A program made the translations under genes and the position numbers. The notes beneath the pieces were generated by a model. That model was not told where the DNA came from and ran no database searches. It saw only the letters and a list, made by a program, of their open reading frames with translations. A DNA stretch of 18,673 bases from Roseibacillus sp. (GTDB lineage: Bacteria; Verrucomicrobiota; Verrucomicrobiia; Verrucomicrobiales; Akkermansiaceae): contig PBTP01000063.1 in the NCBI GenBank assembly GCA_002729275.1, positions 98,225 to 116,897 of the forward strand, given 5' to 3'. Shown here in pieces: positions 3,248-18,150 of this stretch. Every line of letters begins with the position of its first letter. Within the stretch, counting starts at the first letter, position 1.

Positions 3248-3568
3248 TCACCCTCTCATGGAAGTCAGGTCCTTAACGTCAACTGTCTGGCGAGCCCGGT
3301 AGAGGGCCACGATGATTGCGAGTCCTACTGCAACCTCGGCAGCAGCCACGGTTATGATGAAGAAAACAAGCACCTGTCCGTTGTAATCCGGGAGTCCGTT
3401 CTCTCCGGTATTGAAACGGGAAAACGCGACAAGAGTGAGGTTGGCAGCGCTCAGCATCAGTTCGAGGCACATGAAAATCACAATGATATTGCGTCGGATG
3501 AGAACCCCTGCCAGTCCGATGGCGAAGAGGAGTCCTGATATGAAGAGGTATTCCTGGAGAGACGCCAT
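3248..3568 (-). CDS. nuoK: NADH-quinone oxidoreductase subunit K
   Basis: Small three-helix membrane subunit of complex I, 106 residues (family about 100). Both membrane glutamates of the central charge axis are visible: Glu36 in [12 protein letters not shown] and Glu78 in [14 protein letters not shown]. The second is shifted relative to the E. coli numbering by a slightly longer loop ([14 protein letters not shown]). The start ATG lies 3 bases after the nuoJ stop, so the two are probably translationally coupled. A 71-base spacer with no obvious structure separates it from nuoL. Confidence 0.96.
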
Positions 3569-3571
3569 GTG

Positions 3572-4204
3572 TTAGCTTTCAGAACCTCCGGATTTGGAAT
3601 GTTTTTTCTTCAGGGAGAGAGCAACAACTCCAACGGTCGCAACGAGTAGAAGGACTCCTGTGATTTGTAAGGGGAAGTTGTATCCGGGTGTCCGGATTGA
3701 GGCGTTATCGCCCTTGTGACCAAAGAGAGTGAGGCCGACGAGATTCACATCTGGCAGAGATTTCTGCCGCAGGCTGTTGTAGATTTCCGACTGTTTGTCA
3801 GGATCCCGCTTCTCATCGTAGAAGCCTTTCGCAGCCTCTTCGAGCGGAAGGGCTTGAGGATTTCCACCACGAACTTCGGGAAGCACCGCTGAGAGTTGGA
3901 TGACAAAAGTAAAGGGAATGATCAAGCCGCCCACAATGACCAGAGGGCTTGAACGTTTGAAAGTCGAGGGGGCCTTCAAGTCCAGAAGCATGATGATAAA
4001 CAGAAATAACACCATGATAGCGCCCGCGTAGACGAGGATCTGAATGATTCCTACGAAATAGGCATTCAGTCCGACAAAGAGAGCTGCGAGCCCGACGAAG
4101 GAACCAACCATGGAGATCGCGGAGCTTACCGGGTTACGAAAACATACGAGGGCAATTGCACCCACGATGGATATGGCGGCGAAGGCGTAGAAGAAAACAG
4201 GCAT
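3572..4204 (-). CDS. nuoJ: NADH-quinone oxidoreductase subunit J
   Basis: Membrane subunit of complex I, 210 residues, with about five transmembrane helices. The diagnostic segment is QILVYAGAIMVLFLFIIMLL (residues 55-74), which contains the conserved tyrosine of the bulged TM3. Between TM4 and TM5 there is a hydrophilic stretch of roughly 60 residues (about 113-172), rich in charged residues, followed by a last helix and a short lysine-rich tail. The stop is 3 bases from the nuoK start. An 85-base spacer without a recognised signal separates it from nuoI. Confidence 0.95.
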   Translation of the reverse strand: MPVFFYAFAAISIVGAIALVCFRNPVSSAISMVGSFVGLAALFVGLNAYFVGIIQILVYAGAIMVLFLFIIMLLDLKAPSTFKRSSPLVIVGGLIIPFTFVIQLSAVLPEVRGGNPQALPLEEAAKGFYDEKRDPDKQSEIYNSLRQKSLPDVNLVGLTLFGHKGDNASIRTPGYNFPLQITGVLLLVATVGVVALSLKKKHSKSGGSES

Positions 4205-4289: not shown

Positions 4290-4856
4290 TCATTTCAGCT
4301 CATTCCATTTGTTGACCAGGCCCTCGCGGATCCCTCCGATCTCATAGAGGCGGTCCTTATCATTAACCATTTCCTCACGGCTAACACCGGTCATGGCATA
4401 GTCCTGCCTCAGGAAGATGGCCTGTTCTGGGCATACTTCCTCACACATCCCGCAATAAATGCAGCGAATCATGTCGATGTCGAACTTCTGCGGAGCCTTC
4501 TCCACCTTTGCCCATGGGTCCTCAGACTGAATTTCACCAGGCATTATGGTTATTGCCTTGGGGGGGCAGATGAATTCGCAGAGTTGACAGGAGACGCACC
4601 GTTCTCGTTTTTGTTCGTCTGTGACAAGGGCGGGAACTCCCCGGTAATATTCAGGCAGCTGAGCGTCCCACTTCTGTTCAGGATACTGCATGGTCACTCC
4701 CAGGCCGGAGGAGGCCAGTTCGTTGCCGCCCTGAGCTTTTCCACGAAGCGACGCGATGGCGTGTTTAAGGGTAATGATTAAACCCTTGAGAACCGCTGGT
4801 AGATAAAGGTGCTCATACCAGTATAGCTTTGGGCGTTTGACTTTGACGATGGCCAT
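4290..4856 (-). CDS. nuoI: NADH-quinone oxidoreductase subunit I, 2x[4Fe-4S] ferredoxin-type
   Basis: Connecting-arm subunit that carries electrons through clusters N6a and N6b towards the quinone site; 188 residues. The two ligand sets are complete: CVSCQLCEFICP (Cys87, 90, 93, 97) and CIYCGMCEEVCP (Cys132, 135, 138, 142). The frame is open upstream to 5288, but that part overlaps nuoH and has no NuoI similarity. ATG 4856 (MAIVKVKRPKLYW) gives the normal N-terminal amphipathic segment and is preferred. The sequence before this ATG is C-rich and has no Shine-Dalgarno match. A 65-base spacer separates it from nuoH. Confidence 0.95.
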   Translation of the reverse strand: MAIVKVKRPKLYWYEHLYLPAVLKGLIITLKHAIASLRGKAQGGNELASSGLGVTMQYPEQKWDAQLPEYYRGVPALVTDEQKRERCVSCQLCEFICPPKAITIMPGEIQSEDPWAKVEKAPQKFDIDMIRCIYCGMCEEVCPEQAIFLRQDYAMTGVSREEMVNDKDRLYEIGGIREGLVNKWNELK

Positions 4857-4921
4857 CAGGTAGGGGGAGTGGAAGGGCTTTAGGTATTTGGGAAAGAAAG
4901 AAGAAGAGTGTGAATATTGTA

Positions 4922-6199
4922 TTAGGTAACCTTCGCCTTTCGTCTGACTTCGTTTGCCTTCGTGATGAAGAACATGAGCAAGGCGGTAATGATCAGCGCC
5001 GGTATTCCGAAGAGAAAGGTGTTTAGAAGGCCAATATGAGGGGCAGCTATGATCAGGGCCGCGAGAAAAATGTTGAAGAGAGCCAGTTCGAAGAACACGA
5101 CCCAGCCCAGTTTCATAAGTTGGTCGTAACGAAATCGTGGAACGGTCCAGCGAACCCAGATGAAAAAGATAATAAAGGCTACGGTCTTTGCTAGGAAAGC
5201 GCCCATGTGAATGAGCCCGGCATACCATTTCCAGTCTCCTTCCGAGGTTTGGAGCAGGGCGCTGTCCAAACCGAATCCAAGTGACCACCCTCCCAAGAAT
5301 ATCGTTACAATGAGAGCAGAGCCAACAATCATCGCCGCATATTCACCCATGAAAAAGAGGGCGAATTTCATGGACGAATATTCCGTATGGTAACCGCCTA
5401 CCAGTTCGGTCTCACACTCGGGGAGATCGAAGGGCATTCGATTTGTTTCGGCGAAGATGGAGGTGGTAAATACGAAGAAGGAAATCCCCATCGGGAGAAG
5501 AAGCAGCCATTGTTGCGAACTGGTCTGCCAATAGGCTTCGTGGATCAATGTGCCATTTTCGTTCCAGAGAGGGAGAAGAAGCCATCCGTTAGCCGCTTGA
5601 TATGTTACGATATCACTAAGGTTTAATTTTCCGAAAAAGAGAAGGACCGGGATCACTGAAAGGCCCAGAGCGATTTCGTAGGAGATCATCTGGGCACATG
5701 AGCGCACTCCGCCAAAAAATGGGTACTTCGAGTTCGATGCCCAACCGGCAAGGGTGATTCCGTAAACACTAAGAGAGGCAATCGCGAAGATGAAGAGAGG
5801 GCCAACCCCTATGTCGGCAATGACCATCTTGATTTCGTATCCAAATATAGTGACGGCACTTCCAAAGGGGATCACGCAGAGGCTTACGAAAGCAGGTGCT
5901 GCAGTAAAGGCAGGCGCCATCCAGTAAAAAGATTTTCTGACGTGTGCCGGGGTGAAGTCCTCTTTCAACAAGCCTTTCACGCCGTCGGCAAGAGGCTGAA
6001 TTAGGCCAAAGAGCTTCAGATCTTTTTTGAAGCCAAAAAGAGTGGCCGGGATGCCGACTCTGTTTGGGCCAACCCGATCCTGAAGGACAGCGGATACCCT
6101 GCGCTCGGCATAAGTGGAATAGGCCACCAGAGGAAGGACCACCAGAAAGGTGAATCCGAAGATCTTGACAGCCGAGGCGATAATGAAAAAGAAATCCAT
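4922..6199 (-). CDS. nuoH: NADH-quinone oxidoreductase subunit H
   Basis: Membrane subunit that forms much of the quinone chamber and links it to the proton-pumping subunits. Visible landmarks: AERRVSAVLQDRVGPNRVG (residues 31-49), GWASNSKYPFFGG (152-164), and the strongly conserved ETNRMPFDLPE and GYHTEYSSMKFALFFMGEY between residues 251 and 287. At 425 residues it is longer than the roughly 325-residue E. coli protein. Part of the excess is an insertion around residues 200-230, between membrane helices. It starts 17 bases after the nuoG stop. Confidence 0.96.
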   Translation of the reverse strand: MDFFFIIASAVKIFGFTFLVVLPLVAYSTYAERRVSAVLQDRVGPNRVGIPATLFGFKKDLKLFGLIQPLADGVKGLLKEDFTPAHVRKSFYWMAPAFTAAPAFVSLCVIPFGSAVTIFGYEIKMVIADIGVGPLFIFAIASLSVYGITLAGWASNSKYPFFGGVRSCAQMISYEIALGLSVIPVLLFFGKLNLSDIVTYQAANGWLLLPLWNENGTLIHEAYWQTSSQQWLLLLPMGISFFVFTTSIFAETNRMPFDLPECETELVGGYHTEYSSMKFALFFMGEYAAMIVGSALIVTIFLGGWSLGFGLDSALLQTSEGDWKWYAGLIHMGAFLAKTVAFIIFFIWVRWTVPRFRYDQLMKLGWVVFFELALFNIFLAALIIAAPHIGLLNTFLFGIPALIITALLMFFITKANEVRRKAKVT

Positions 6200-6216: not shown

Positions 6217-7971
6217 CTAGCCGACAATTTCTCCCGCAGTTATGCGGTTTTTTTCCGATTCCAAGAGTGGAATACTCTCACCGGTTTTCATGATGGGAAT
6301 CCCGAGATCGGTAATCTTGGAAAGATTTAATTCTTCAAATTCGTCTACCTCTTCCGCGATTTCAGCAAAGACTTCTTCGAGGAGGTATCGGGAGGGTACC
6401 TCCGGCTCGAGGGCCTTGATCAAGTCGCGGATGATCTCCCAGTCGTCCATGGCGCCGGGCGGTGGGGAAATAGCCTGGTTCAGGCGCTGAAGGCGGCCCG
6501 TGATGTTGACGAGGGAGCCTCGTTTCTCAGCAAAACCTGCGCCGGGCAAAACGACATGACTCGCTTTTGCGGTGCCGTTGGTCAGGATGTGGTTCGATAC
6601 AAGAAACTCGAGGTTGGCCAGATCGTTGGCCTCAAACTGCGCATCTGCGAGAAGGTCCTCGTAGAACACAATGAGGGCCTTGATTTTACCCTCGGCCACT
6701 CCCTGACGGATTGTCTCCAGCTTGGCATATGGATTTTTGGACGCCCAGATCAGCTTGGCTCCTGATGTGTTGGGGTTCCGATCAGCAGAAATCAGCTTCC
6801 CGTCGGACTCTCCGAGCCTTGGAACCAGAGAAAGAAGGTCTGTTTCGAGAGTATCGGAAAGCCGCCGGAGCAGATACAGCTCCTCATTGGTCATGCGGCC
6901 GGAGCCGATGACGGCTACTTCCTCTCCCTTAAAGCGGTTGAGTCCCTCCGCAGCTTTGGAGGTCGCACTGGGCCAGTCAGAAACTTCATGCTTGGCGCCG
7001 GTTTTCACGAACGGATCTCCGAGCCGGGTTTCTGAGTGAAGGTAGTGAAAGTTAAGTCTGTGGCTGTCAGGCATCCACGAGGAATTCACTTCGTTATTTT
7101 CCCTGGGAGTTACCCGGAAAATTTCATTTCCACGAGTCCAGATCACGGTGTTGCATCCGGTCCCACAGTTGACGTCGATGCTTTTCGTCTCTTTAAGGAA
7201 CCAAACTCTCATCTGGAAGCGGAAGTCGTTTGAGGTGAGAGCTCCAACAGGGCATATGTCGGCGGTGTTGAGTGAGTAGTTACTGTCCAGACGACGGCCC
7301 GGATGGACGGTGAGCTTTGTGTGAGTCCCACGGTCAATGAACCCGAGAACGGAGTCGTCGGCTACTTCGTCCATGAAGCGGATACACCTGCTGCACATGA
7401 TGCAGCGTTCATCATCGAGCCGTATTCGAGGTCCGATCTCGACATTCTTAGGCTTCTTGACCTTCATTTCCTCGAACCTCGATGAGCCACGTCCGTGTTC
7501 CACTGAGAACTCCTGAAGGCCGCACTCACCGGCCTGGTCGCAAATCGGGCAGTCGAGCGGGTGGTTGATGAGGAGAAATTCCATGACTCCATTGCGGCAC
7601 TCTTCAACGAGGTCGCCTGTCGTCCGGATTCCCATGTTCTCAGCAACAGTGTTAGCGCATGCGATAACGGGGCGAGGCATCCACGAGATCTGCTGGTAGC
7701 CATCATCCTCATAGCTGGGTGATTCACCCGGAGCGGGGCGGCTTGGCATCCCCATCTGCACGAGGCACATCCGGCAATTTCCGGGGGATGAAAGCTTGGT
7801 ATGGTAGCAGTAATGAGGAACTTCCTTTTCCGCCATTTTACACACCTCGATCATTCGGGTGCCGGAGGGAACCTGAATCCATGTGTCATCTACCTGTACA
7901 TTGACCAGGCCCTTCTCGGCAGCGAGGTCTTTGGGCAGCTTTTCAGCGGTCGCTGGTGCGGAGTCTGCCAT
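6217..7971 (-). CDS. nuoG: NADH-quinone oxidoreductase subunit G (short form)
   Basis: Iron-sulfur subunit of the NADH-oxidising arm, 584 residues against about 900 in E. coli. The [2Fe-2S] ligands are Cys55, 66, 69 and 105, a spacing like the Thermus form. The N5 set is His137, Cys141, 144, 150 (HPLDCPICDQAGEC). The N4 set is Cys190, 193, 196, 240 (CIMCSRC...CPVGA). These are followed by a molybdopterin-oxidoreductase-like domain. In that domain only Cys269 and Cys273 (NCGTGCN) remain where the extra N7 cluster would sit. The distal position reads WMPDSHR instead of the usual W-x-C-D, so N7 is probably absent. A 159-base gap upstream carries a Rex-type operator and a promoter-like sequence, so this gene may head a second transcript (nuoG-H-I-J-K-L-M). 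Confidence 0.95.
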   Translation of the reverse strand: MADSAPATAEKLPKDLAAEKGLVNVQVDDTWIQVPSGTRMIEVCKMAEKEVPHYCYHTKLSSPGNCRMCLVQMGMPSRPAPGESPSYEDDGYQQISWMPRPVIACANTVAENMGIRTTGDLVEECRNGVMEFLLINHPLDCPICDQAGECGLQEFSVEHGRGSSRFEEMKVKKPKNVEIGPRIRLDDERCIMCSRCIRFMDEVADDSVLGFIDRGTHTKLTVHPGRRLDSNYSLNTADICPVGALTSNDFRFQMRVWFLKETKSIDVNCGTGCNTVIWTRGNEIFRVTPRENNEVNSSWMPDSHRLNFHYLHSETRLGDPFVKTGAKHEVSDWPSATSKAAEGLNRFKGEEVAVIGSGRMTNEELYLLRRLSDTLETDLLSLVPRLGESDGKLISADRNPNTSGAKLIWASKNPYAKLETIRQGVAEGKIKALIVFYEDLLADAQFEANDLANLEFLVSNHILTNGTAKASHVVLPGAGFAEKRGSLVNITGRLQRLNQAISPPPGAMDDWEIIRDLIKALEPEVPSRYLLEEVFAEIAEEVDEFEELNLSKITDLGIPIMKTGESIPLLESEKNRITAGEIVG

Positions 7972-8012: not shown

Positions 8013-8041
8013 AATATGCATTGAGGAACCAAGCGGAACAA
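8013..8041 (-). promoter_or_regulatory. Putative sigma-70 type promoter for nuoG
   Basis: Read on the minus strand, TTGTTC (8041-8036), 17 bases, then CATATT (8018-8013). The -35 begins 7 bases beyond the Rex operator. Transcription would begin near 8006, giving a leader of about 35 bases to the nuoG ATG. The hexamers are imperfect. Support comes from a similar arrangement upstream of nuoD. Confidence 0.35.
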
Positions 8042-8048
8042 GCGCACT

Positions 8049-8066
8049 TTGTGAAATTTTTCACAA
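8049..8066. promoter_or_regulatory. Rex operator upstream of nuoG
   Basis: TTGTGAAATTTTTCACAA sits in the 159-base nuoF-nuoG gap, 78 bases upstream of the nuoG start. It differs from the site upstream of nuoD by one spacer base. Both sites are preceded on the + strand by AC and CT flanks, and both are followed after 8 variable bases by AGTTCCTG (8074-8081 here, 11525-11532 at the other site). Two independent perfect Rex-type palindromes, both in intergenic gaps of an NADH dehydrogenase cluster, are unlikely by chance. Confidence 0.8.
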
Positions 8067-8130: not shown

Positions 8131-9561
8131 TCAGGGACTTCCAACCTGGGCACCGACTCCCTTGAGGTAGCGACGTTGTGCTTTCTGCTCCGGGTTTCGG
8201 GTGGCGGCAGGGTGATCCTCGGCCGTATCTGTAAGAAGTTCGTCGCGGAACTTGTCGATCATCCCTTCCACTGGCCAAGAGCAGGCCTCTCCGAAGGCGC
8301 AGATCGTTTTGCCATCAATCTGATAGGCAACTGACTCAAGGGTATCGAGATCCGCGGGGCTCGCTTTCCCGGCGACCAGACGGTCGGTGATCTTTTTCAT
8401 CCATGTAGAGCCTTCCCGGCAGGGAGTGCACTGGCCACAGCTCTCATGAGCATAGAATTCGTTGATGTTGTTTAAGACCCAAGACATTCTGCGGGAGTCA
8501 TCCATCACGATGACACCTCCGGATCCCGCCATTGACCCGCAAGCAGCCATCGTGTCGAAATCGAGAGGAATTTCATCGAAGGTGATCTCTCGTTTGTCAG
8601 TGCCGGGAGGGCAAGACACATTGTAGGTGTCTGAACACCGGAGAATCTTTGCCGAGGATCCTCCAGGAATGACGGCCTTGAATGTTCGCCCTTCCAACGG
8701 CCCACCGCATACATCGTTGAGTAGCTCTCCCATCGTCATCTTCCCAACTTCGATCTCGTAGTAGCCCGGCTTCTGCACGTCGCCTGAGACGCAAATGATA
8801 CGAGTCCCGGTGTTACGGGGCGTTCCTATTTCCGCATATGACTCGCCGCCCATTTCAATGATGTGCTTTACGTGGCACAGAGTTTCCACGTTATTGACGA
8901 TCGTGGGGCACATGTAGAGGCCCATCGCGGCTGGGAAGTAGGGGGGCTTGATGCGGGGGTAGGGGCGTTTTCCTTCAAGGGATTCGATCAGGCCTGTTTC
9001 CTCACCGCAAATGTAGGCTCCAGCGCCGCGATGGATATAGAACTCGCAGCTGAAGTCACTTCCGCAGATCTTTTCGCCTAGAAACCCAGCTTTCCTTGCC
9101 TCCTTGATAGCGTTTTCAACGATTCTTGCGGCCTCGGGAAACTCCTCGCGAATATAAATGTAGGCCAGCTTGGCGCCCACCGCGAAGCAGGAGATGACCA
9201 TCCCCTCGATGAGTTGGTGAGGGTCTTGATGGACGATATAGCGATCTTTGAATGTTCCGGGTTCTGACTCGTCGCAGTTACAGATCAGATACACCGGCTT
9301 CTTGTTTCCGGGTGGAATGAATCCCCATTTGACGCCAGTCGGAAAGCCTGCGCCGCCTCGGCCCCGCAGGCCTGATTGTTTTACTTCCTGGGTGACCTCG
9401 CCGGGTTCCATCTGGAGGGACTTTTTGAGAGCCTTGTATCCTCCGTCTGAGAGATATTTCTTCAGGGAAGGATTCCACCCTTTCCGGTCTATGTTCCGAA
9501 AGATCAGACGGCGTTCACGCTCGTCTGGCTCCTTGCCTTCGATGTAGGTGACTTTTGGCAT
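8131..9561 (-). CDS. nuoF: NADH-quinone oxidoreductase subunit F, NADH/FMN-binding
   Basis: Binds NADH and FMN and passes electrons to the N3 [4Fe-4S] cluster; 476 residues. The FMN/NADH fold is marked by GRGGAGFPTGVKWGF (residues 67-81), CNCDESEPGTFKDRY (94-108) and GAGAYICGEETGLIESLEG (180-198). The N3 ligands are Cys375, 378 and 381 (ESCGQCTPCREGS) and Cys421. All key motifs are intact. It begins 9 bases after the nuoE stop. The C-terminal roughly 35 residues beyond the core are charged and not conserved in the family as I know it. Confidence 0.97.
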   Translation of the reverse strand: MPKVTYIEGKEPDERERRLIFRNIDRKGWNPSLKKYLSDGGYKALKKSLQMEPGEVTQEVKQSGLRGRGGAGFPTGVKWGFIPPGNKKPVYLICNCDESEPGTFKDRYIVHQDPHQLIEGMVISCFAVGAKLAYIYIREEFPEAARIVENAIKEARKAGFLGEKICGSDFSCEFYIHRGAGAYICGEETGLIESLEGKRPYPRIKPPYFPAAMGLYMCPTIVNNVETLCHVKHIIEMGGESYAEIGTPRNTGTRIICVSGDVQKPGYYEIEVGKMTMGELLNDVCGGPLEGRTFKAVIPGGSSAKILRCSDTYNVSCPPGTDKREITFDEIPLDFDTMAACGSMAGSGGVIVMDDSRRMSWVLNNINEFYAHESCGQCTPCREGSTWMKKITDRLVAGKASPADLDTLESVAYQIDGKTICAFGEACSWPVEGMIDKFRDELLTDTAEDHPAATRNPEQKAQRRYLKGVGAQVGSP

Positions 9562-9570
9562 TCTTACCGA

Positions 9571-10137
9571 CTACTTGTAGCTCTCAAGAAGTTCAGATGC
9601 TTTCTCCGCTGGGAGATCCTCGTGAAAATCATCGTTAACCAGACACACAGGTGCCGAACCGCAGGAGGCAAGACATTCTGCGAATTCTACTGACCAAGTT
9701 CCGCAGGGAGAAACTGCAACCGGGTTATGGTGAGAGGTCTGTGAACGGTTAATTCCTGCCAGTTCGCAAATTTTGTCCATCAGCTCATAACTTCCTCCCA
9801 TGGCGCAGCTCAGGGTCCGGCAGACCCGGATATGATATTTCCCGGGAGCATGCTGGCGCAGGCCCGGATAGAAGGTGACTACTTCCTCGACTTTGATGGG
9901 CTCCACATCCAGCTTGGCGGCAACCCACTCGATCGCGTCGGAGGAAATGTAACCAAACTTTGACTGGACGATGTGCAGGAGGGGGAGCACCGCTGAACGT
10001 TTCTGTTCAGCGGGATATTGACCGATACGAGCGTTGGCTTCTTTCTCAATGGCTCTGTCAGCCTCGAAAGGAGGGTGGTGCTTTGTCCCGGTGGTCGCAT
10101 GAGAAGTGACCTGGTCGGTGAGGATTGTTTGAGGCAT
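9571..10137 (-). CDS. nuoE: NADH-quinone oxidoreductase subunit E, [2Fe-2S]
   Basis: 24-kDa-type subunit holding cluster N1a near FMN; 188 residues. Thioredoxin-like ferredoxin ligands are Cys106 and Cys111 (CRTLSCAMGG) and Cys155 and Cys159 (ECLASCGSAP). The helical N-terminal part (residues 30-95, VQSKFGYIS...VEEVVTFYPGL) is typical. The first 25 residues are polar and variable. It sits 45 bases after nuoD and 9 bases before nuoF. Confidence 0.96.
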   Translation of the reverse strand: MPQTILTDQVTSHATTGTKHHPPFEADRAIEKEANARIGQYPAEQKRSAVLPLLHIVQSKFGYISSDAIEWVAAKLDVEPIKVEEVVTFYPGLRQHAPGKYHIRVCRTLSCAMGGSYELMDKICELAGINRSQTSHHNPVAVSPCGTWSVEFAECLASCGSAPVCLVNDDFHEDLPAEKASELLESYK

Positions 10138-10182: not shown

Positions 10183-11448
10183 TCATCGGTCACACTCTCC
10201 CATGACGAAATCGAGTGAGCCCAAAATGGTGGGGATGTCAGAGACCATGTGGCCCACGAGGAGGTCGGAAAGAATCGAAAGGTTCACGAAGGAAGGAGCT
10301 CGTATTTTCAACCGGTGAGGAACTCCTCCACCCTTGGAATTGATGTAGAATCCTAATTCGCCCTTGGGGTTCTCAGCCCCGAAGTAAACTTCGCCTTCTG
10401 GGGCCTCAATTCCCTGAGTTGCGACAATAAAATGGTGGATGAGCTCCTCCATTTTCATCATGACTTTCTCTTTTTCAGGCAAGCTGCTTTTGGTGTCAGC
10501 GACGTTAACGGGACCGTCTGGTAACGTATCCAGAACCTGCCTGACGATGGAGATCGATTGGCGCAGCTCTTCCATCCGAACTAGATAGCGGTCATAGCAA
10601 TCTCCCAGCTCTCCAACGGGGACATCAAATTCGTATTGCTCGTAGCCCAGGTAAGGTCGGTCTTTCCGCAGGTCACGGCAGGGCCCAGAGGCGCGAAGGT
10701 TTGGCCCGGTCAGCCCGTAGGAGATTGCAGTTTCGGCGGATATTATACCCACGTCCTTTGTGCGGATGAGGAAAATTTTGTTTCTGGTGAGCAGCCTGTC
10801 TACTTCATCGATGGTTTTTTCACATTCAGTCAGGAAGGAGCGCAGGCTATCCGTAAAGCCCTCCGGGAGGTCGCGGATCTGGCCGCCAACCCTCGTATAG
10901 GAGGTTGTGAACCGGGCACCCGTGAGTTGCTCTGAGAGGTTGTAGATTTTCTCTCTCTCAGTAAAAGTGTAGAGAAAAACGGTCATTGCACCCACGTCCA
11001 TTGCGTAAACGCCAACTCCGAGTAGATGAGAGGAGATTCGTGCGATCTCACAGGCGAGAACCCGAATTGCCTGGCCACGGGGAGGAAGCTCCCATCCCAT
11101 CAATTTTTCTACCGCGCAGGCGTAGGCTACATTATTGGCCAAGGGGGCGAGGTAGTCCAGTCGGTCCGTGTAAGGAACAAACTGGTTGTAGTGCATATTC
11201 TCGGCAATTTTCTCGTCGCCCCGGTGAAGGAAGCCAATATCTGGGTCGGCCTTCGTCACAACCTCGCCGTCGAGTTCGAGAATGAGACGTAGCACCCCGT
11301 GGGTGGCGGGGTGAGATGGCCCCATATTGAGGACCATTTTCTCCCCTAGGAGGTCTTCAGTGCCTGACTGATAATCGGTCGCAGCCTGCGTCGCTGTCGC
11401 GGCCGCATCAGGAACCTCGTAAATCGTTGTGGCAGAGGTCTCGCTCAT
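10183..11448 (-). CDS. nuoD: NADH-quinone oxidoreductase subunit D, 49 kDa type
   Basis: Hydrogenase-large-subunit-like protein forming the quinone-reduction site with NuoB and NuoH; 421 residues and not fused to NuoC. The N-terminal loop GPSHPATHGVLRL supplies His50. RLDYL supplies Tyr99, 49 residues later, the same spacing as the His/Tyr quinone-headgroup pair of the bovine 49 kDa subunit. The C terminus LDFVMGECDR matches the family ending. It is the first gene of the cluster on this strand: nuoA, nuoB and nuoC, which normally precede it, are absent and a divergent unrelated gene follows. The first 30 or so residues are Ala/Thr-rich and variable. A perfect Rex-type operator lies 52-69 bases upstream of the start. 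Confidence 0.96.
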   Translation of the reverse strand: MSETSATTIYEVPDAAATATQAATDYQSGTEDLLGEKMVLNMGPSHPATHGVLRLILELDGEVVTKADPDIGFLHRGDEKIAENMHYNQFVPYTDRLDYLAPLANNVAYACAVEKLMGWELPPRGQAIRVLACEIARISSHLLGVGVYAMDVGAMTVFLYTFTEREKIYNLSEQLTGARFTTSYTRVGGQIRDLPEGFTDSLRSFLTECEKTIDEVDRLLTRNKIFLIRTKDVGIISAETAISYGLTGPNLRASGPCRDLRKDRPYLGYEQYEFDVPVGELGDCYDRYLVRMEELRQSISIVRQVLDTLPDGPVNVADTKSSLPEKEKVMMKMEELIHHFIVATQGIEAPEGEVYFGAENPKGELGFYINSKGGGVPHRLKIRAPSFVNLSILSDLLVGHMVSDIPTILGSLDFVMGECDR

Positions 11449-11464
11449 TGACGGGATTCACAAG

Positions 11465-11494
11465 AATAAGGCCCCAAACAGGCCGTTCGCGCAA
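11465..11494 (-). promoter_or_regulatory. Putative promoter for nuoD
   Basis: Read on the minus strand, TTGCGC (11494-11489), 18 bases, then CTTATT (11470-11465). It starts 5 bases beyond the Rex operator, paralleling the nuoG promoter candidate. A further Rex half-site TTGTGAA (11463-11457) lies directly after the -10 candidate, where a bound repressor would block initiation. The hexamers are weak. Confidence 0.28.
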
Positions 11495-11499
11495 GGACT

Positions 11500-11517
11500 T
11501 TGTGAATTTTTTCACAA
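11500..11517. promoter_or_regulatory. Rex operator upstream of nuoD
   Basis: TTGTGAATTTTTTCACAA is a perfect palindrome with 7-base arms and an AT spacer, matching the consensus TTGTGAA-N4-TTCACAA of the redox-sensing repressor Rex. The symmetry extends to 11-base arms (11496-11506 and 11511-11521). It lies between the divergent nuoD and the deacetylase-like gene, 52 bases from the nuoD ATG. Rex is known to repress nuo genes in other phyla when NADH is low relative to NAD+. A rex gene is not in this window, so the regulator is inferred from the site only. Confidence 0.8.
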
Positions 11518-11614
11518 AGTCTTTCAGTTCCTGCAAAGAGCTTTTTTTGGAGAAAACCACCCAAAAACGCAGAGTCTCTATGAACGGGCACCGATATTTA
11601 AGAGATCCTAAGTA

Positions 11615-11643: not shown

Positions 11644-11675
11644 ATCCGGGTCTGCTGATTGTTATGGGTTACTCA

Positions 11676-12596
11676 ATGCGCTGCTTCTACTCCCCGGAGT
11701 TCTACTTGGATCTTCCGTCGGATCACCCCTATCCCATGCAAAAGTTCCGCATTTCGAAGGATATGCTCTTGGAACGCGGAACGGTAAGGCCTGAAGATAT
11801 CGTGGAAGTGCGCCCGGCGGCAACTCACGTGTTGGAGAGGGCCCATACCCCGGCATACCTGCAGAAGATCTATTCAGGCCAACTGGATCGGAAAGAGCAG
11901 ATTCAACTTGGGTTTCCCCTGACCCCTCAACTCTACACGCGAAGTGCTCTTGAGGTGGAGGCAACCCGGCTTGCGTGCGAGGCCGCTCTGCAGGATGGCG
12001 CCGCAGTTGTTCTGGCCGGAGGAACGCACCACGCTTTCCGGGAACATGGAGAGGGTTATTGCGTTTTTAACGATATAGCGGTCGCAATCCGTAGCCTGCA
12101 GGTCAAGAGGCCTGGGATCAAGGTCATGGTAGTGGATACTGACGCGCATCAGGGGAACGGGACAAACAGCCTGCTCGATAACGATCCCAATGTCTTCACG
12201 TATTCAATTCACGTCGGACGTAATGACCCGGTGCGCAAGGTGAAGGGGTCAATGGATGTTGAGACCGTGCGGTATGTCGAGGGAGAGATGTACTTGAAGC
12301 AGCTTTTCTCGACCCTGGCGGCAGCGATGGACGTTTTCTCCCCAGACCTTGTTATCTGGATCGCAGGGGCGGATAACCATCGCAATGATCAGCTTGGGCA
12401 AATGATGCTCACGGTGAAAGATATTCAGAGACGAGATGAGGTCATCCTTGGGGCCATGCTCCGGAACCGCATCCCGATCGCACTGCTCTATGGAGGGGGT
12501 TACAACCGTCAGCCGGAATATACAGCAAAATTGCACCGGAACACGGTTGTGACAGCCAAGCGGATTCTTGGTGAGGTGCAAGGGCTTGTGTCCTGA
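11676..12596 (+). CDS. Histone deacetylase superfamily zinc amidohydrolase
   Basis: Predicted zinc-dependent deacetylase of the arginase/deacetylase fold, closest in appearance to bacterial HDAC11-like proteins; 306 residues. Active-site elements, numbered from ATG 11676: the His pair in GGTHHAFREHGEGYC (His118, His119), FNDIAVA, zinc ligands Asp156 and His158 in VVDTDAHQGNG, Asp233 in AGADNHRNDQLG, and the oxyanion tyrosine Tyr276 in LYGGGY. The frame is open much further upstream (to 11427), and ATGs at 11580 and 11664 are possible. The family's N terminus is xxxYSPxYxLxL, which fits MRCFYSPEFYLDL at 11676. The substrate cannot be read from the sequence (acetyl-lysine, acetylpolyamine or another N-acyl compound). 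It is divergent from nuoD and probably co-transcribed with the reductase gene that starts 4 bases later. Confidence 0.88.
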   Translation: MRCFYSPEFYLDLPSDHPYPMQKFRISKDMLLERGTVRPEDIVEVRPAATHVLERAHTPAYLQKIYSGQLDRKEQIQLGFPLTPQLYTRSALEVEATRLACEAALQDGAAVVLAGGTHHAFREHGEGYCVFNDIAVAIRSLQVKRPGIKVMVVDTDAHQGNGTNSLLDNDPNVFTYSIHVGRNDPVRKVKGSMDVETVRYVEGEMYLKQLFSTLAAAMDVFSPDLVIWIAGADNHRNDQLGQMMLTVKDIQRRDEVILGAMLRNRIPIALLYGGGYNRQPEYTAKLHRNTVVTAKRILGEVQGLVS

Positions 12597-12600
12597 GACC

Positions 12601-13518
12601 GTGCGCCGAATCGCGATTGTCGGGTCAGGGGCAATTGGTTGCTACTATGGCGCGCGGCTTGTAGCTGCGGGCATGGATGTAAGGTTCCTCGCGCGTTCTG
12701 GCTATTTGGCCCTAAGGGAAAAGGGCCTCGGGGTGAAAAGTCCGGATGGCGATCTTCAACTGGGTTCGGTTCAAGCCTTCCGTTCGGTGGAGGACATCGG
12801 TCCAGTGGATCTCGTTGTCCTTGCATGGAAAACCACCTCGAATGGATCATGTCGGGAGGTAATTAGCCCATTACTGCACGAGGAGACGGTGATTCTGGCT
12901 CTCCAAAATGGACTAGGGACTACCGAGTTTCTTGCAGAAACCTTTGGAGGAGATCGAATTTATGGAGGGCTCTGCTTCGTCTGTATCAATCGTCTCGGTC
13001 CCAACCGGATCAATCATATCGCCCAGGGGCTGGTTACAATTGGCGACTTCAATGGAGCTGATCCGGAGCGGCTCGAACAGCTGGTATCTCTCTTCAGGAA
13101 TGCGCAAATTCCCTGCAGGGCGGTAGAGGACCTGCCAACCGCTCAGTGGGTCAAGCTGATTTGGAATGTCAGTTTCAATGGGCTTTGCATTACCGAAGGT
13201 GGGGTCACCACTGAGCAGTTACTTGCGAGTGCGGAAGGGGAATCTCGAGTCAGGAAGATCATGGGAGAGGTTATTGATGGAGCGACTGCGTTGGGGATGG
13301 ACATACCCGCCAGTATCATTGATGAGCAGATTGTATCCACGCGGGAGATGGGCTCATACCGCCCTTCAAGTCTAATCGATTACCTTGAGGGACGTGAGGT
13401 CGAGCTCCAGGCAATCTGGGCTGAGCCACTGGGCAGAGCGGAGAGTGCAGGAGCTCGTCTGCCTGCCTGGAATCAATTGCTCGCAGACCTTAGGACACGT
13501 CTCGCGGAGCGGGTTTGA
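12601..13518 (+). CDS. panE: 2-dehydropantoate 2-reductase (ketopantoate reductase) family
   Basis: NADPH-dependent reduction of ketopantoate to pantoate in pantothenate/CoA synthesis. Preferred start is GTG 12601, directly before the Rossmann strand (RRIAIVGSGAIGCYYGARL); an ATG at 12568 would overlap the previous gene by 29 bases. From GTG the protein has 305 residues. The catalytic pattern matches the E. coli enzyme in spacing: Lys185, Asn189 and Asn193 in KLIWNVSFN, then Ser256 and Glu268 twelve residues apart. LQNGLGTTE (residues 101-109) is the usual cofactor-side motif. The symbol carries some risk because paralogues of this fold reduce other 2-keto acids. The last 29 bases overlap tail-to-tail with the gene on the other strand. 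Confidence 0.85.
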   Translation: MRRIAIVGSGAIGCYYGARLVAAGMDVRFLARSGYLALREKGLGVKSPDGDLQLGSVQAFRSVEDIGPVDLVVLAWKTTSNGSCREVISPLLHEETVILALQNGLGTTEFLAETFGGDRIYGGLCFVCINRLGPNRINHIAQGLVTIGDFNGADPERLEQLVSLFRNAQIPCRAVEDLPTAQWVKLIWNVSFNGLCITEGGVTTEQLLASAEGESRVRKIMGEVIDGATALGMDIPASIIDEQIVSTREMGSYRPSSLIDYLEGREVELQAIWAEPLGRAESAGARLPAWNQLLADLRTRLAERV

Positions 13519-13975: not shown

Positions 13976-15802
13976 TTATTTTTTAGCTGAGGACGCTGAA
14001 GCCAGTTTCGGTTGGGCGGCTCCCAAACGCTGGATGGAATCCCTAAGTGTTGAAAGAAGTATATCGGGTGAGTCAAGGCGGGTCGGCGTATCGTAACCAA
14101 TCCAGAGGCAGGTGGTGCGCTCCGATCCGAGCCATACAGCCCAAGCATCGGTTTTTGATAGGCTGGTCCCCAGAAGGAATGGGGGTTGATTATCGGGAAA
14201 ATGAGTCTCCAGAGCGGCTCTCATCGCGGCCGGCGCGAACGCAGATTTGGACGAGGGCTCAATTGAGAGAATTTGATTTCCATCTGAATCGAGCAACTTA
14301 CGCAGGAAGTATGTCCGGGGTTTTTGTCCCTCAGCGGTCAGGGCTGCTGATGCGGCAGCCACTTCAAGAGGGGTGGCACTAACTCCACCTCTGAATAAAT
14401 CATCTCCCTCGAGGAAAGGCCCCCTGAATCCAAATCTTTCTGCCAATCTGATGAGGTCTTCCGTTCCAAGTTCTCGGCCTAGTGTCACTGGTTGCCCTTG
14501 TCTTGGTTTAATACCTCGTTCCGCTGCGGCGGCGTAAACAAAGGGGGTGAAAATCTCTCCGAGGTCGCGTCGAGCATCGAGGGCTCGGTTGAAGGAGGTA
14601 TTCCCGGTTGCGCGGCCTCCTACAATGCCTCTGATTGCACCGGTTCTAGTGTCGATACAGACGACGGCAATCTCGGGAGATCCCGGGATTTTTTCCAGGA
14701 GTGCTTGTGCCTCTCCTTCGAGAAGCTCCTGCGTGTTGGAGCTGATCGTGCTCTGGAGACGGAGGCCTCCATTGCGAATATCCCTCGCATCGATGAGTTC
14801 CTCAAAGTGGCGACGAACAGCTTGCAGTGCTCGATTTCCTCCGGTGGAGCCCCCGGGGGGGCTAAGACCTAGATCGCTGGATTGGATTCTTGAAGCCTCT
14901 TCCGGACTGAGGCTCTTCTCAGTGACCATGCGAGCAAGGACTTCGTCCTGTTGGAGAGTTGCTTTTTCCAGCGCTCGTAAGGGTGAGCAGGCATGTGGGG
15001 CACGTATGATTCCGACCAGCAGTGCACACTGGCGCCTCGTAAGGTCGGTTGCACTTACCCCAAAGTAGCGCCGAGAAGCCTCCTCCAGACCGTGACAGCC
15101 TGATCCGAAATAGATTCGATTGACGTAGGCGGAGAGGATCTCGTCCTTCGAGTAAGAGGCCTCGATCCGTAGCGCGATTGCAATTTCTACCAGCTTTCGG
15201 TGCAGGCTTTTCTCTCGGAGATTGAAGCTGTTACGGGCGAGCTGCATGGTCAGAGTTGAGGCCCCCTGAGTGAAGGACATGTCCGAGGCATTGCGCATGG
15301 TTGCTCGCAGGATGCCTCGAATATCGACCCCGCTGTGAGTGAAGAAACGCTTGTCTTCGCGTGCTTCCAGAGCGGAAACAAAGAAATCGGGTATTTCCAT
15401 GCGGGAAATAAGGCGCCGGTTCTCTCCATGGAGAGTAGCCAGTTCCTTGCCATCGATATCGAAAATGACCGAGCGTTCGGGCATCTTCTGTATTTCGCCG
15501 ATATCGTAACTGAGCGACGCGGTGAAGTAGAAGGCGCCAACGCCAATAATCAGGATGATACAGATCATTGCTGTGCGGAACCCGAAGCGAAGGATTTTCC
15601 CCGCCCATGGCGGCAGCCACTGAGGGGGAATTGATTTCTGCTGGGCAGGTTTCCAGCTGGAATCGTTTTCGGCGTCATTGCCCCCTATGGGCTCTCCCGT
15701 GAATCCAGATGCCTTATCAGGCTGGTCTCCAGCGCCGCCTCGCGCTGTATGCGTTCCTTCGGCCTCTGAAGAGGGCTGCCGGGCTGATGGGGCGTCGGGC
15801 AT
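13976..15802 (-). CDS. Class A PBP-like GT51 glycosyltransferase with degenerate transpeptidase domain
   Basis: 608 residues. A Pro/Ser-rich cytoplasmic tail (1-70) and one membrane helix (about 73-95) precede a GT51 peptidoglycan glycosyltransferase domain with intact motifs: EDKRFFTHSG with catalytic Glu149, QGASTLTMQLARN (179-191), RKLVEIAIALRIE (202-214) and KDEILSAYVNRIYFGSG (219-235). The transpeptidase homology region follows (IVGGR, FNRALDARRD, FTPFVYAA). Its SxxK motif reads GEIFTPF (Glu416, Thr419 instead of Ser, Lys). About 43 residues that hold SxN in the paralogue are missing, and KTG is replaced by LLG (543-545). It should therefore polymerise glycan strands but not cross-link or bind penicillin covalently. 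The frame is uninterrupted, which argues for retained function. It lies 50 bases after the complete paralogue on the same strand. Confidence 0.9.
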   Translation of the reverse strand: MPDAPSARQPSSEAEGTHTARGGAGDQPDKASGFTGEPIGGNDAENDSSWKPAQQKSIPPQWLPPWAGKILRFGFRTAMICIILIIGVGAFYFTASLSYDIGEIQKMPERSVIFDIDGKELATLHGENRRLISRMEIPDFFVSALEAREDKRFFTHSGVDIRGILRATMRNASDMSFTQGASTLTMQLARNSFNLREKSLHRKLVEIAIALRIEASYSKDEILSAYVNRIYFGSGCHGLEEASRRYFGVSATDLTRRQCALLVGIIRAPHACSPLRALEKATLQQDEVLARMVTEKSLSPEEASRIQSSDLGLSPPGGSTGGNRALQAVRRHFEELIDARDIRNGGLRLQSTISSNTQELLEGEAQALLEKIPGSPEIAVVCIDTRTGAIRGIVGGRATGNTSFNRALDARRDLGEIFTPFVYAAAAERGIKPRQGQPVTLGRELGTEDLIRLAERFGFRGPFLEGDDLFRGGVSATPLEVAAASAALTAEGQKPRTYFLRKLLDSDGNQILSIEPSSKSAFAPAAMRAALETHFPDNQPPFLLGTSLSKTDAWAVWLGSERTTCLWIGYDTPTRLDSPDILLSTLRDSIQRLGAAQPKLASASSAKK

Positions 15803-15852: not shown

Positions 15853-18150
15853 CTACTCCACTGGGATCGCTCTCAGGGGGTGCTTCGGGCAGAAATCGGT
15901 GGAGTGCGGTTCGAGATCGACAGGGATGAAATCGTCGTAGGCAGTCTTTGCCTTTTCGCATCCCGGAGTCGCATGTTTACCCGAGGATCGACAGAGTCGG
16001 ACGGACTTCATTTCCACAGGAGGTGTAAAGCTGCTGAATTCGTATCTTCCCAGCCGGTCGGCGGTTTTCATAACTCTGACCCATATGGGAAGTGCGAGGT
16101 CTGCCCCGTAACCTCCTTCCACGATGGGCTTAGGTTGATCGAGTCCCACCCACACGGCGCAGGTTAGACTGGATGAATATCCAACAAACCATGCGTCTTG
16201 ATATCCATCAGTTGTCCCCGTCTTTCCACCAGCCGGGCGCTGAAAGCCGAGTTGGCGCCGCATGCTCGAGGCTGTTCCTGACCGAGTAGTGTCTTCGAGA
16301 ACAGATGAAGTCGTCCATGCAGCTCCCTTCCTGTCGACTGCTTCATAGCCTAGCGGCTTGTGGACCCAGAGTTCCTTTCCGTCCCGATCCAGAATCCTAC
16401 TTACAAAGTGTGGGCCGTAACGGGTCCCTGCATTGGGGAAAATAGTATAAGCGCTTGCAACCTGTTCAGGTGTTGCCTCCCACGAGCCAAGATATGATGA
16501 TGCCTTGCTGGGAACGGTAATGGCAAAGGAGCGGTGGGCTAGGGAACGAACACTTTCCATTCCCGCGTAATTGCCAATACGGATAGAGGATGTATTCCGG
16601 GAATTCATCAAGGCCTCTCCTGCTGTTACAGTAGGTAAATACTTGTCGTCCGAGTTTCTTGGGTCCCAGTCCCGGGGTGCATACCTGATCTGCCCGGGTT
16701 TGATTCTCGAGTCATCTACGAAGGACCCGGGGCGCATCCCCTTGTCGAAGGCGGCAAGATATACGAAGGGTTTAAACACAGATCCGACCTGCCGGCGGGC
16801 ATGAATAGCACGATTGAATTTCGATTCATCTGCGTCCCGCCCACCGACGATACAGCGGATTGCGCCGGTGCCGTTCTCTACAACCACAATCGCTCCTTGG
16901 AGGTAGTCAGGAGCTTTCCGTTGGCCCGAGGGCGTGGACTGCCAGTTGCTGCGTGTGTTGTGACGGTAACCAGGGCGCCTTTCGATTTCACTGAGTTTGG
17001 AGTTGAGATGGCGCTCAGCAGATTCTTGGAGATCCTTGTCAATCGTGGTGATGATCTTAAGTCCACCTTGTTTGATGTATTTCTTCTCAAGGTGGCGCTC
17101 AATATCCCGCCTGATCGCATCCAGGGCGTAGGTGTCTTCAATAATGCGGCGATTTTTCGGGCGGATATGAAGGGGTTCAGCCTTCGCGGCTTTAGATTCC
17201 AGATCGGTAATAAAGCTGTTCGCAACCATGGAATCCAGAGTCGAATTTCTCTCCTTCTTTGTGTTTTCGACATCGTCGAAGGGAGAAAATGCGTTGGGTC
17301 CGCGAATGATCCCTGCCAGCATCGCTGCTTCGGACAGGGTAAGGTCTTCAGCAGATTTTTCGAGGTAAGCCCGTGACGCCGCTTCTACACCGTGAATGGA
17401 TCCGCCCCAGAAGATGAGATTCATGTAGTGCTGCATGATCTCGTCTTTTTCGTAAGCGTCCTCGATCCGAAAGGTGAGGGCGAGCTCGAGGAACTTGCGG
17501 TCAAGTTGTTGCCACTTGGGTCCCCTTGTGGGTAACCGGAAGGCGTTTCGTGCCAGTTGCATTGTGAGAGTCGAGGCTCCCTGAGCGAACGATTTTCGCT
17601 TAATGTTTTCTACGATGGCGCGGGCGACACCCCGTGGATCCACGCCGCGGTGCTGGTAAAAGTTCTTGTCTTCACGAGCAAGAAGAGCTCTGCGAAAGTG
17701 GGGGGAGACTTCCGCCAGATTAACGACGTGACGATGAGCTCCATGCAGGCGCCCAAGTTCCTTCATGTTTCTGTCGTAAATAATTGAACGCTGAGGCATT
17801 TCAGCCACTTGACTCATGTCGTATCTGAAAGATCTCAGAAAGTAGAAGAGTCCGCCCAGAATAAGTAATGTAATTACTCCGCAAGCTCCGTAGGAGATTC
17901 CCTTAGCTGGGATCCGGAGAAGGCCAGGCCAGTTGCCCACGAGTCGATTGATGATGAGATAAGGCCAGAATAAGAGAACGAAAAGAGGGCTATGACCTCC
18001 AGCTGCTTTTCGCTTTCCCTTTGCTCCGGGCCTGCGGGACCTCGTCTTCGTGCGAGCTGTTTTTCGTGTCCGCTTACGAGATGGTTTCCGCCGCGCCGAG
18101 AGGGGTCTTTGGCGAGCGGGCGCTTTCTTTCTTGGTCTGCGACTGGACAT
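15853..18150 (-). CDS. Class A penicillin-binding protein (bifunctional glycosyltransferase/transpeptidase, PBP1A-like)
   Basis: 765 residues. The N-terminal 50 residues are extremely Arg/Lys-rich, followed by a membrane helix (about 87-106). The GT51 domain has EDKNFYQHRG with Glu160, QGASTLTMQLARN (190-202) and KDEIMQHYMNLIFWGG (235-250). The transpeptidase has all three motifs: Ser457-x-x-Lys460 in GSVFKPFVY, Ser517-x-Asn519 in NSRNTSS, and Lys643-Thr-Gly in GGKTGTTDGYQDAWFVGY. A C-terminal cysteine-bearing extension (CRSSGKHATPGC...FCPKHP) resembles that of PBP1A proteins. It builds and cross-links peptidoglycan in the periplasm. It is first in a likely operon with the transpeptidase-dead paralogue and the small PVC-type protein. 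Start ATG 18150 is preferred since the basic tail runs directly from it. Confidence 0.95.
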   Translation of the reverse strand: MSSRRPRKKAPARQRPLSARRKPSRKRTRKTARTKTRSRRPGAKGKRKAAGGHSPLFVLLFWPYLIINRLVGNWPGLLRIPAKGISYGACGVITLLILGGLFYFLRSFRYDMSQVAEMPQRSIIYDRNMKELGRLHGAHRHVVNLAEVSPHFRRALLAREDKNFYQHRGVDPRGVARAIVENIKRKSFAQGASTLTMQLARNAFRLPTRGPKWQQLDRKFLELALTFRIEDAYEKDEIMQHYMNLIFWGGSIHGVEAASRAYLEKSAEDLTLSEAAMLAGIIRGPNAFSPFDDVENTKKERNSTLDSMVANSFITDLESKAAKAEPLHIRPKNRRIIEDTYALDAIRRDIERHLEKKYIKQGGLKIITTIDKDLQESAERHLNSKLSEIERRPGYRHNTRSNWQSTPSGQRKAPDYLQGAIVVVENGTGAIRCIVGGRDADESKFNRAIHARRQVGSVFKPFVYLAAFDKGMRPGSFVDDSRIKPGQIRYAPRDWDPRNSDDKYLPTVTAGEALMNSRNTSSIRIGNYAGMESVRSLAHRSFAITVPSKASSYLGSWEATPEQVASAYTIFPNAGTRYGPHFVSRILDRDGKELWVHKPLGYEAVDRKGAAWTTSSVLEDTTRSGTASSMRRQLGFQRPAGGKTGTTDGYQDAWFVGYSSSLTCAVWVGLDQPKPIVEGGYGADLALPIWVRVMKTADRLGRYEFSSFTPPVEMKSVRLCRSSGKHATPGCEKAKTAYDDFIPVDLEPHSTDFCPKHPLRAIPVE

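Follow-up and report, generated by a model that had tools for sequence, protein, structure and literature searches.

The window, defined as the entire 18,673-nucleotide stretch of Roseibacillus sp. DNA that was analyzed, carries on its minus strand the genes nuoD to nuoL and part of a nuoM/N-like gene (Table 1). An inverted repeat in front of nuoD reads GACTTTGTGAA TTTT TTCACAAAGTC; its arms match perfectly over 11 bp on reverse complementing, as was claimed in the initial annotation, and the next base pair outwards is mismatched. The predicted start codon of nuoD lies at 11448 on the minus strand, and the 18-base core of this palindrome, TTGTGAATTTTTTCACAA (11500–11517), is 52–69 bp upstream of it. 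A second perfect core, which was absent from the initial annotation, lies 78–95 bp upstream of nuoG. The true start of nuoI should be sought further inside its open reading frame, since the NuoI match corresponds to residues 198–314. The window also contains a ketopantoate-reductase gene (12568–13518) and two adjacent genes for transglycosylase-type penicillin-binding proteins (13976–15802 and 15853–18150).

Table 1. Features of the window and its immediate continuation
Feature	Position	Strand	Basis
Predicted Rex operator of nuoDEF	11496–11521		11-bp perfect inverted repeat
Predicted second perfect Rex operator, before nuoG	8049–8066		Motif scan
Predicted -35 box TTGCGC of nuoD, 5 bp off operator	11489–11494	-	Alignment
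Predicted -10 box TTATTC of nuoD, 19-bp spacer, suboptimal	11464–11469	-	Alignment by eye
Predicted -35 box TTGTTC of nuoG, 7 bp off operator	8036–8041	-	Alignment; inferred
Predicted -10 box CATATT of nuoG, 17-bp spacer	8013–8018	-	Alignment; inferred
nuoD	10183–11448	-	TIGR01962 7.6e-162
nuoE	9571–10137	-	PF01257 1.4e-39; NuoE models
nuoF	8131–9561	-	TIGR01959 2.1e-164
nuoG, first gene behind second operator	6217–7971	-	TIGR01973 5e-134
nuoH	4922–6199	-	PF00146 7.4e-106
ORF holding nuoI	4290–5288	-	TIGR01971 7.1e-30, under the cut-off of the model
nuoJ	3572–4204	-	PF00499 5.4e-34
nuoK	3248–3568	-	NF004320 1e-35
nuoL	1338–3176	-	NF005141 1.6e-181
nuoM/N-like gene, runs off window (L008:4003–5556)	1–1331	-	PF00361
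Further nuoM/N-like gene beyond window	L008:2395–3993		PF00361
Divergent histone-deacetylase-like gene	11664–12596	+	PF00850 8.7e-51; start 11580 or 11664 by eye

Perfect sites in the genome

The base composition leads to an expectation of 4.5e-5 perfect cores per window and 0.009 per genome; two are observed in the window and six in the genome, a MAG of 3.67 Mb in 143 contigs with a completeness of 89.7%. When up to three mismatches are allowed, the window gives two matches versus a shuffled mean of 0.56, and 19 of 200 shuffles reach two. Two matches at this tolerance are thus ordinary; it is unusual that both are perfect. The genome scan for TTGTGAA-N4-TTCACAA that had been proposed with the initial annotation returned six perfect sites, no one-mismatch sites and five two-mismatch sites, the last of which are regarded as background because the reversed-pattern control also gives five. 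A chance origin of the palindrome is ruled out by the genome counts, the expectations and the reversed-motif control.

All six perfect sites precede respiratory or ATP synthase operons. One lies upstream of nuoBC (contig C133), two lie on C122, the contig of the window, one before nuoDEF and one before the run of genes that begins with nuoG and extends to two more nuoM/N-like genes, and one lies upstream of atpBEFHAG (C114). The remaining two form a tandem pair, with starts 23 bp apart, before an actABCDE-like set of alternative complex III (ACIII; C38, L005:7212–7252), in which only ActD was named by an ACIII-named Pfam model and the other genes by domain and order. Tandem pairs with a 23-bp step were also found in six of the 14 relatives with listed places (G003, G006, G011, G012, G021 and G033); the position at act was confirmed in this genome and in G003 (L142:5001–5041) only.

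Conservation in front of nuoD

The closest NuoD proteins among the matches listed come from Roseibacillus MAGs (99% identity for L017 and 90–93% for L018–L020), followed by other Akkermansiaceae and Verrucomicrobiales. Upstream of nuoD, the palindrome is perfect in 62 of the 80 named loci that were kept from at least 583; it has one mismatch in L065, meets a contig edge in L096 and is absent from 16, so that the comparison with relatives proposed in the initial annotation is in its favor. The operator before nuoG is shared by L017, L019 and L020 (three of the 16 named loci showing nuoG, among the matches listed) and by G003.

For 50 of these 80 loci the genome, of unstated completeness, was checked for rex: each of the 18 lacking a perfect site, and 32 among the 62 in which the site is perfect. 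Among the latter, 30 have rex, the exceptions being L025 and L028. Nine of the 16 loci without a nuoD site belong to genomes without rex (L032, L037, L049, L061, L066, L083, L088, L091 and L093). Seven genomes bear rex and have no perfect nuoD site. In four of these (L035, L038, L044 and L054) nuoD is preceded by nuoL-like genes, and perhaps needs no promoter of its own for this reason. In the other three (L027, L041 and L051) the nuoD promoter still stands but both arms of the operator have decayed; these count against strict conservation of the operator, and perhaps represent a second complex I copy or a recent escape.

The suggestion that the divergent deacetylase gene might also be a Rex target is not supported. 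Among the matches listed, 75 loci extend 700 bp or more upstream of nuoD; this gene adjoins nuoD in four of them, all from Roseibacillus (L017–L020), and the palindrome is present in 55 of the remaining 71. Furthermore, the conserved promoter elements beside the palindrome face nuoD. Judged by this arrangement, the deacetylase gene is probably not under Rex control.

Distribution of rex and of the motif

In the order list, which comprised this genome and 279 genomes of at least 90% completeness (280 in total), rex was counted only when the match was over the cut-off. It was found in 193 genomes and the perfect motif in 200. With relatedness ignored, 193 genomes have both, 80 have neither, seven have the motif only and none has rex only; the reversed-motif control gave one match each in two of the 280. 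The seven genomes with the motif only are the present one, G111, G135, G149, G214, G237 and G261. The site in G111 (spacer GGTG), inside a long reading frame of a genome without rex, was taken as chance. The 80 genomes with neither belong to four genera within the family (g3, 55; g14, 20; g13, 3; g5, 2), and the occurrence of both states in g14 and g13 suggests that rex and motif were lost together more than once. Weak PF06971 matches below the cut-off (E values of 1.8e-4 to 5.7e-4) in G071, G072, G074, G075, G076, G078, G094, G096 and G176 were scored as no rex.

PF06971, the N-terminal domain of Rex, is present in 46 of 58 genomes consisting of the present one and 57 relatives, including 11 of 14 congeners. 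In the same set the motif occurs in 53 genomes and the reversed control in none. The congener protein is identified as Rex by NCBIfam (3.3e-73) and, among solved structures, best matches 5zz5/7wb3 (1.4e-45), the latter (PDB 7WB3) being the Rex of T. maritima with NAD+ and DNA (PMC8836258). The available part of that paper names the residues that contact DNA and NAD. Thirteen of these contacts (ten of the 12 to DNA and three to NAD) were tested in 19 Rex sequences of relatives, which came from 16 genomes with three present twice; 12 are invariant in 19/19 and the last is conserved in 17/19. In the alignment, the remaining DNA contacts, Glu34 and Ser52, are replaced by Ser and Thr in the congener Rex, at positions that the same part of PMC8836258 calls variable.

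The rex gene and its neighborhood

The initial annotation had proposed a check for rex in this genome and had named the lack of a Rex homolog as refuting; taken literally, that lack is observed, but on this point the outcome is mixed. No rex gene was found in the 89.7%-complete MAG by PF06971 profile search, and the congener Rex protein has no match in the assembly; but the whole 5.5-kb congener rex neighborhood has no match there either, in a DNA search run without a positive control. In this neighborhood (L126:3021–8302), sigma-factor and vWF-type genes adjoin rex, and PP2C phosphatase and glutamine synthetase genes are divergent (Pfam assignments); most other congener rex loci show similar reading frames by eye. 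The genome holding L017, the NuoD of which is 99% identical to that of the window, has rex. The absence of rex reads as a gap in the assembly, because the 5.5-kb block is also missing from a MAG of 143 contigs and 89.7% completeness, and the organism itself would then carry the gene. No perfect site was found at rex in 13 neighborhoods, where autoregulation was looked for; one two-mismatch match each occurs in L127, L128 and L131.

Targets and scattered gene pieces

All perfect sites (n = 83) were fetched from 12 genomes chosen for spread and listed places (the present genome, G003, G032, G029, G026, G054, G040, G041, G055, G042, G050 and G037; G052 and G293 were left out). Eighty of the 83 precede nuo, act, atp, NDH-2-like or polyprenyl-synthase genes. 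No respiratory target could be named for the other three, L179:6402 (NnrS-type and RRM genes nearby), L196:5001 (ribosomal protein S12 nearby) and L209:5001 (no family found). By extrapolated starts, the operator centers lie about 45–175 bp before the first gene, the starts of nuoE and act being poorly extrapolated. For eight atp sites the first gene is unmatched, and the site lies about 1.0–1.2 kb before the extrapolated atpE start, where atpB is expected.

The most striking arrangement is that of G054, in which complex I is encoded in eight pieces (BC, D, E, F, G, H, I–L and M) and ATP synthase in four (E-F-H with a presumed atpB, A, G and D), and an operator precedes every one of these pieces; L159 holds the site preceding atpG, and the nuo and atp pieces together with act account for all 13 sites. 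Scattered complex I pieces, every one of those located having a perfect site, were likewise found in the distant relatives G055 (L179–L187), G042 (L188–L195) and G037 (L204–L212), next to those of G054 (L159–L171). All 11 reference subunits, nuoB to nuoL, stand behind sites in G054, G055 and G042, and ten of the 11 in G037, where nuoL was not clearly found; the pieces were located through their sites, and pieces lacking a site could be hidden from this count. A nuoG joined to an upstream nuo gene can be without its own site, as in G026, G040 and G041.

Other targets are found in some genera. A polyprenyl diphosphate synthase, which presumably serves the quinone tail, is found behind L145, L181 and L198 (in G032, G055 and G050), with the NCBIfam models shown all below cut-off, and an NDH-2-like dehydrogenase, assigned by Pfam only, is found behind L148 and L200 (G032 and G050). 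In G042 a lone actE homolog has a site; it may be a paralog, because the stretch fetched at the actABC of this genome shows no actD or actE.

Promoter geometry

In the first set of 59 of the 83 sites oriented to their genes, TTG occurs 22–26 bases after the palindrome start at 46/46 non-act sites (44 nuo and two atp), and TTGC occurs at that place in 40/46, against 1.0 on average and 4 at most after shuffling. At the act sites of this set, TTG is present in 1/13 and TTGC in 0/13. Among 20 further sites, TTG is present at atp (12/12), NDH-2-like (2/2) and nuoM-like (1/1) genes and absent from polyprenyl-synthase genes (0/3) and the lone actE (0/1); at the remaining act site, the TTG is due solely to the start of the tandem neighbor. 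The operator therefore abuts a predicted TTG-type -35 box at 61/61 nuo, atp and NDH-2 sites (62/62 counting atpG), and the act and polyprenyl-synthase sites form a second promoter class without the TTG box. The same box is present at every named nuoD promoter in which the site is perfect (62/62, among the matches listed).

Boxes resembling -10 elements lie near columns 47–49, which places the operator just upstream of -35 with its center near -52 by our own arithmetic. An automatic promoter scan of the 46 non-act sites chose the TTG as -35 in 36 and a -35 inside the palindrome in ten; at act, the -35 was placed inside the palindrome in 12/13, and in six it was TTGTGA itself. In nine relatives without rex, the TTG -35 region of nuoD is kept, with 1–4 of seven bases matching in the distal arm of the palindrome and 5–7 of seven in the proximal arm.

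Discussion

The palindrome is most probably the operator of Rex, a repressor that senses NADH/NAD+ and that would lower nuoDEF transcription at low NADH; from the comparisons described above, we assign this reading a probability of about 0.92. The initial annotation had jointly proposed a Rex operator at nuoD, a verrucomicrobial organism and control of complex I by NADH/NAD+. This proposal is strongly supported by the co-occurrence of rex and motif, the conservation at nuoD and the targets of the six sites, from which we infer the response to NADH. A Rex dimer would occupy the palindrome beside the -35 box of nuoDEF when the NADH/NAD+ ratio is low, and transcription would be lowered; as NADH builds up, Rex would be released and complex I would be made. 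The same switch would act on nuoBC, on the genes from nuoG onward, on alternative complex III and on ATP synthase through identical sites, and much of the path linking NADH oxidation with ATP synthesis may be under one signal, because the operators at those genes are identical.

A perfect inverted repeat with a T-rich center between divergent genes could also be a transcription terminator or RNA hairpin rather than an operator. However, the palindrome is AT-rich and sits upstream of start codons, its sequence itself, beyond the pairing, is kept at all six places in the genome, and the motif accompanies rex and occurs in 200 of 280 genomes, leaving a hairpin with a practically negligible probability. 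The binding of a regulator of the CRP/FNR family to the palindrome is also highly improbable, if slightly less so. The CRP consensus is TGTGA-N6-TCACA, which all six sites fit, with seven such sites in the genome, and a CRP-type HTH is found at E ≤ 0.001 in 36 of the 58 genomes, over the cut-off in 18. Nevertheless, six of the seven TGTGA-N6-TCACA sites keep the longer Rex form; PF13545 has no match in the present genome or in ten of the 14 congeners, all of which bear the motif, and its strong matches (E < 1e-11) are confined to six of the 58 genomes. The presence of PF13545 also does not track the motif, because four of the five motif-less genomes (G016, G018, G027 and G030) have matches. 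CRP was rejected as the binder, with the regulator absent from this genome and the longer Rex form predominating.

A more serious alternative, although still an unlikely one, accepts Rex as the binder and makes it an activator or position-dependent dual regulator at complex I and ATP synthase, and a blocker at ACIII and polyprenyl synthase. The invariable TTG box after the palindrome at nuo, atp and NDH-2 sites and at the listed nuoD promoters with a perfect site would fit this arrangement, as would its absence from the polyprenyl-synthase sites and the lone actE and its presence in only two of 14 act sites, where both TTGs fall within the second of two tandem palindromes. By contrast, the nuoD -35 region would be expected to be weak without an activator, and the nine relatives without rex have kept it; the promoter scan puts the -35 inside the palindrome at ten of the 46 non-act sites; and Rex is a repressor in S. 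avermitilis according to the available part of PMC5355995. Because the promoter outlives the regulator in relatives without rex, a repressor fits better than an activator. Rex would then compete with RNA polymerase, as the retained proximal arm suggests that the polymerase uses those bases.

A literature search on Rex in Verrucomicrobia or on such targets found no Rex regulon described there; a 2012 paper, which is reportedly on the comparative genomics of Rex, lay outside this comparison. In the available part of PMC12578642, 'Rex' occurs only as an author name. A search on scattered nuo genes, at the level of titles and the starts of abstracts, found no paper on such scattering among the matches listed. 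The kind of operator is known; in this organism it is new, and within the literature found it is new in its phylum too. Several features stand out: the sites are uniform and lie upstream of -35, ACIII is among the targets, operators and rex are lost jointly, and each piece has one operator.

One of the closest known parallels is the Rex regulon of S. avermitilis, which is largely respiratory: in the available part of PMC5355995, the motif is TTGTGAANNNNTTCACAA and Rex controls nuo, atp, cyd and ndh2. The targets shared with the present sites are complex I, ATP synthase and ndh2. The motifs of that scan are mismatched (36 in total, of which two have one mismatch, ten have two and 24 have three), whereas perfect sites were counted in the present study. 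The rex-hem operon of S. avermitilis has a site and cyd is a target, whereas no perfect site is present at rex in the neighborhoods above. Furthermore, in S. avermitilis the -35 box lies under the operator at both nuoA1 and atpI (PMC5355995), while at nuo and atp the operator lies upstream of -35 here, and not across it, which makes the mode of repression less obvious. Compared with the portion of the S. avermitilis regulon described there, ACIII, polyprenyl synthase in some genera and a separate site for each scattered piece are added. The proven Rex site of S. aureus, TTGTGAAW4TTCACAA (PMC2883068, available part), is nearly identical to the sites found here; that motif stands before anaerobically induced genes, whereas the present sites stand before respiratory complexes and ATP synthase.

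If Rex acts as proposed, complex I, ACIII and ATP synthase would be made according to the NADH level in a large and mostly uncultured order. The joint loss of rex and operators provides a natural knock-out series, and the scattered nuo and atp genes with identical operators provide a natural test of co-expression after the breaking of an operon. Tentatively, and with slightly less than even odds in our judgment, one redox repressor may in this order hold together a dismembered bioenergetic gene set: new first genes would have kept or gained a cassette of operator, 5–7 bp linker and TTGC-type -35, the scattered subunits would respond together, and lineages without Rex would have lost the operator and kept the promoter, the shared operator perhaps making the break-up tolerable. 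The scattering in G042 is not contig breakage, because 250 kb of a single contig separate its nuoD piece from its nuoBC piece.
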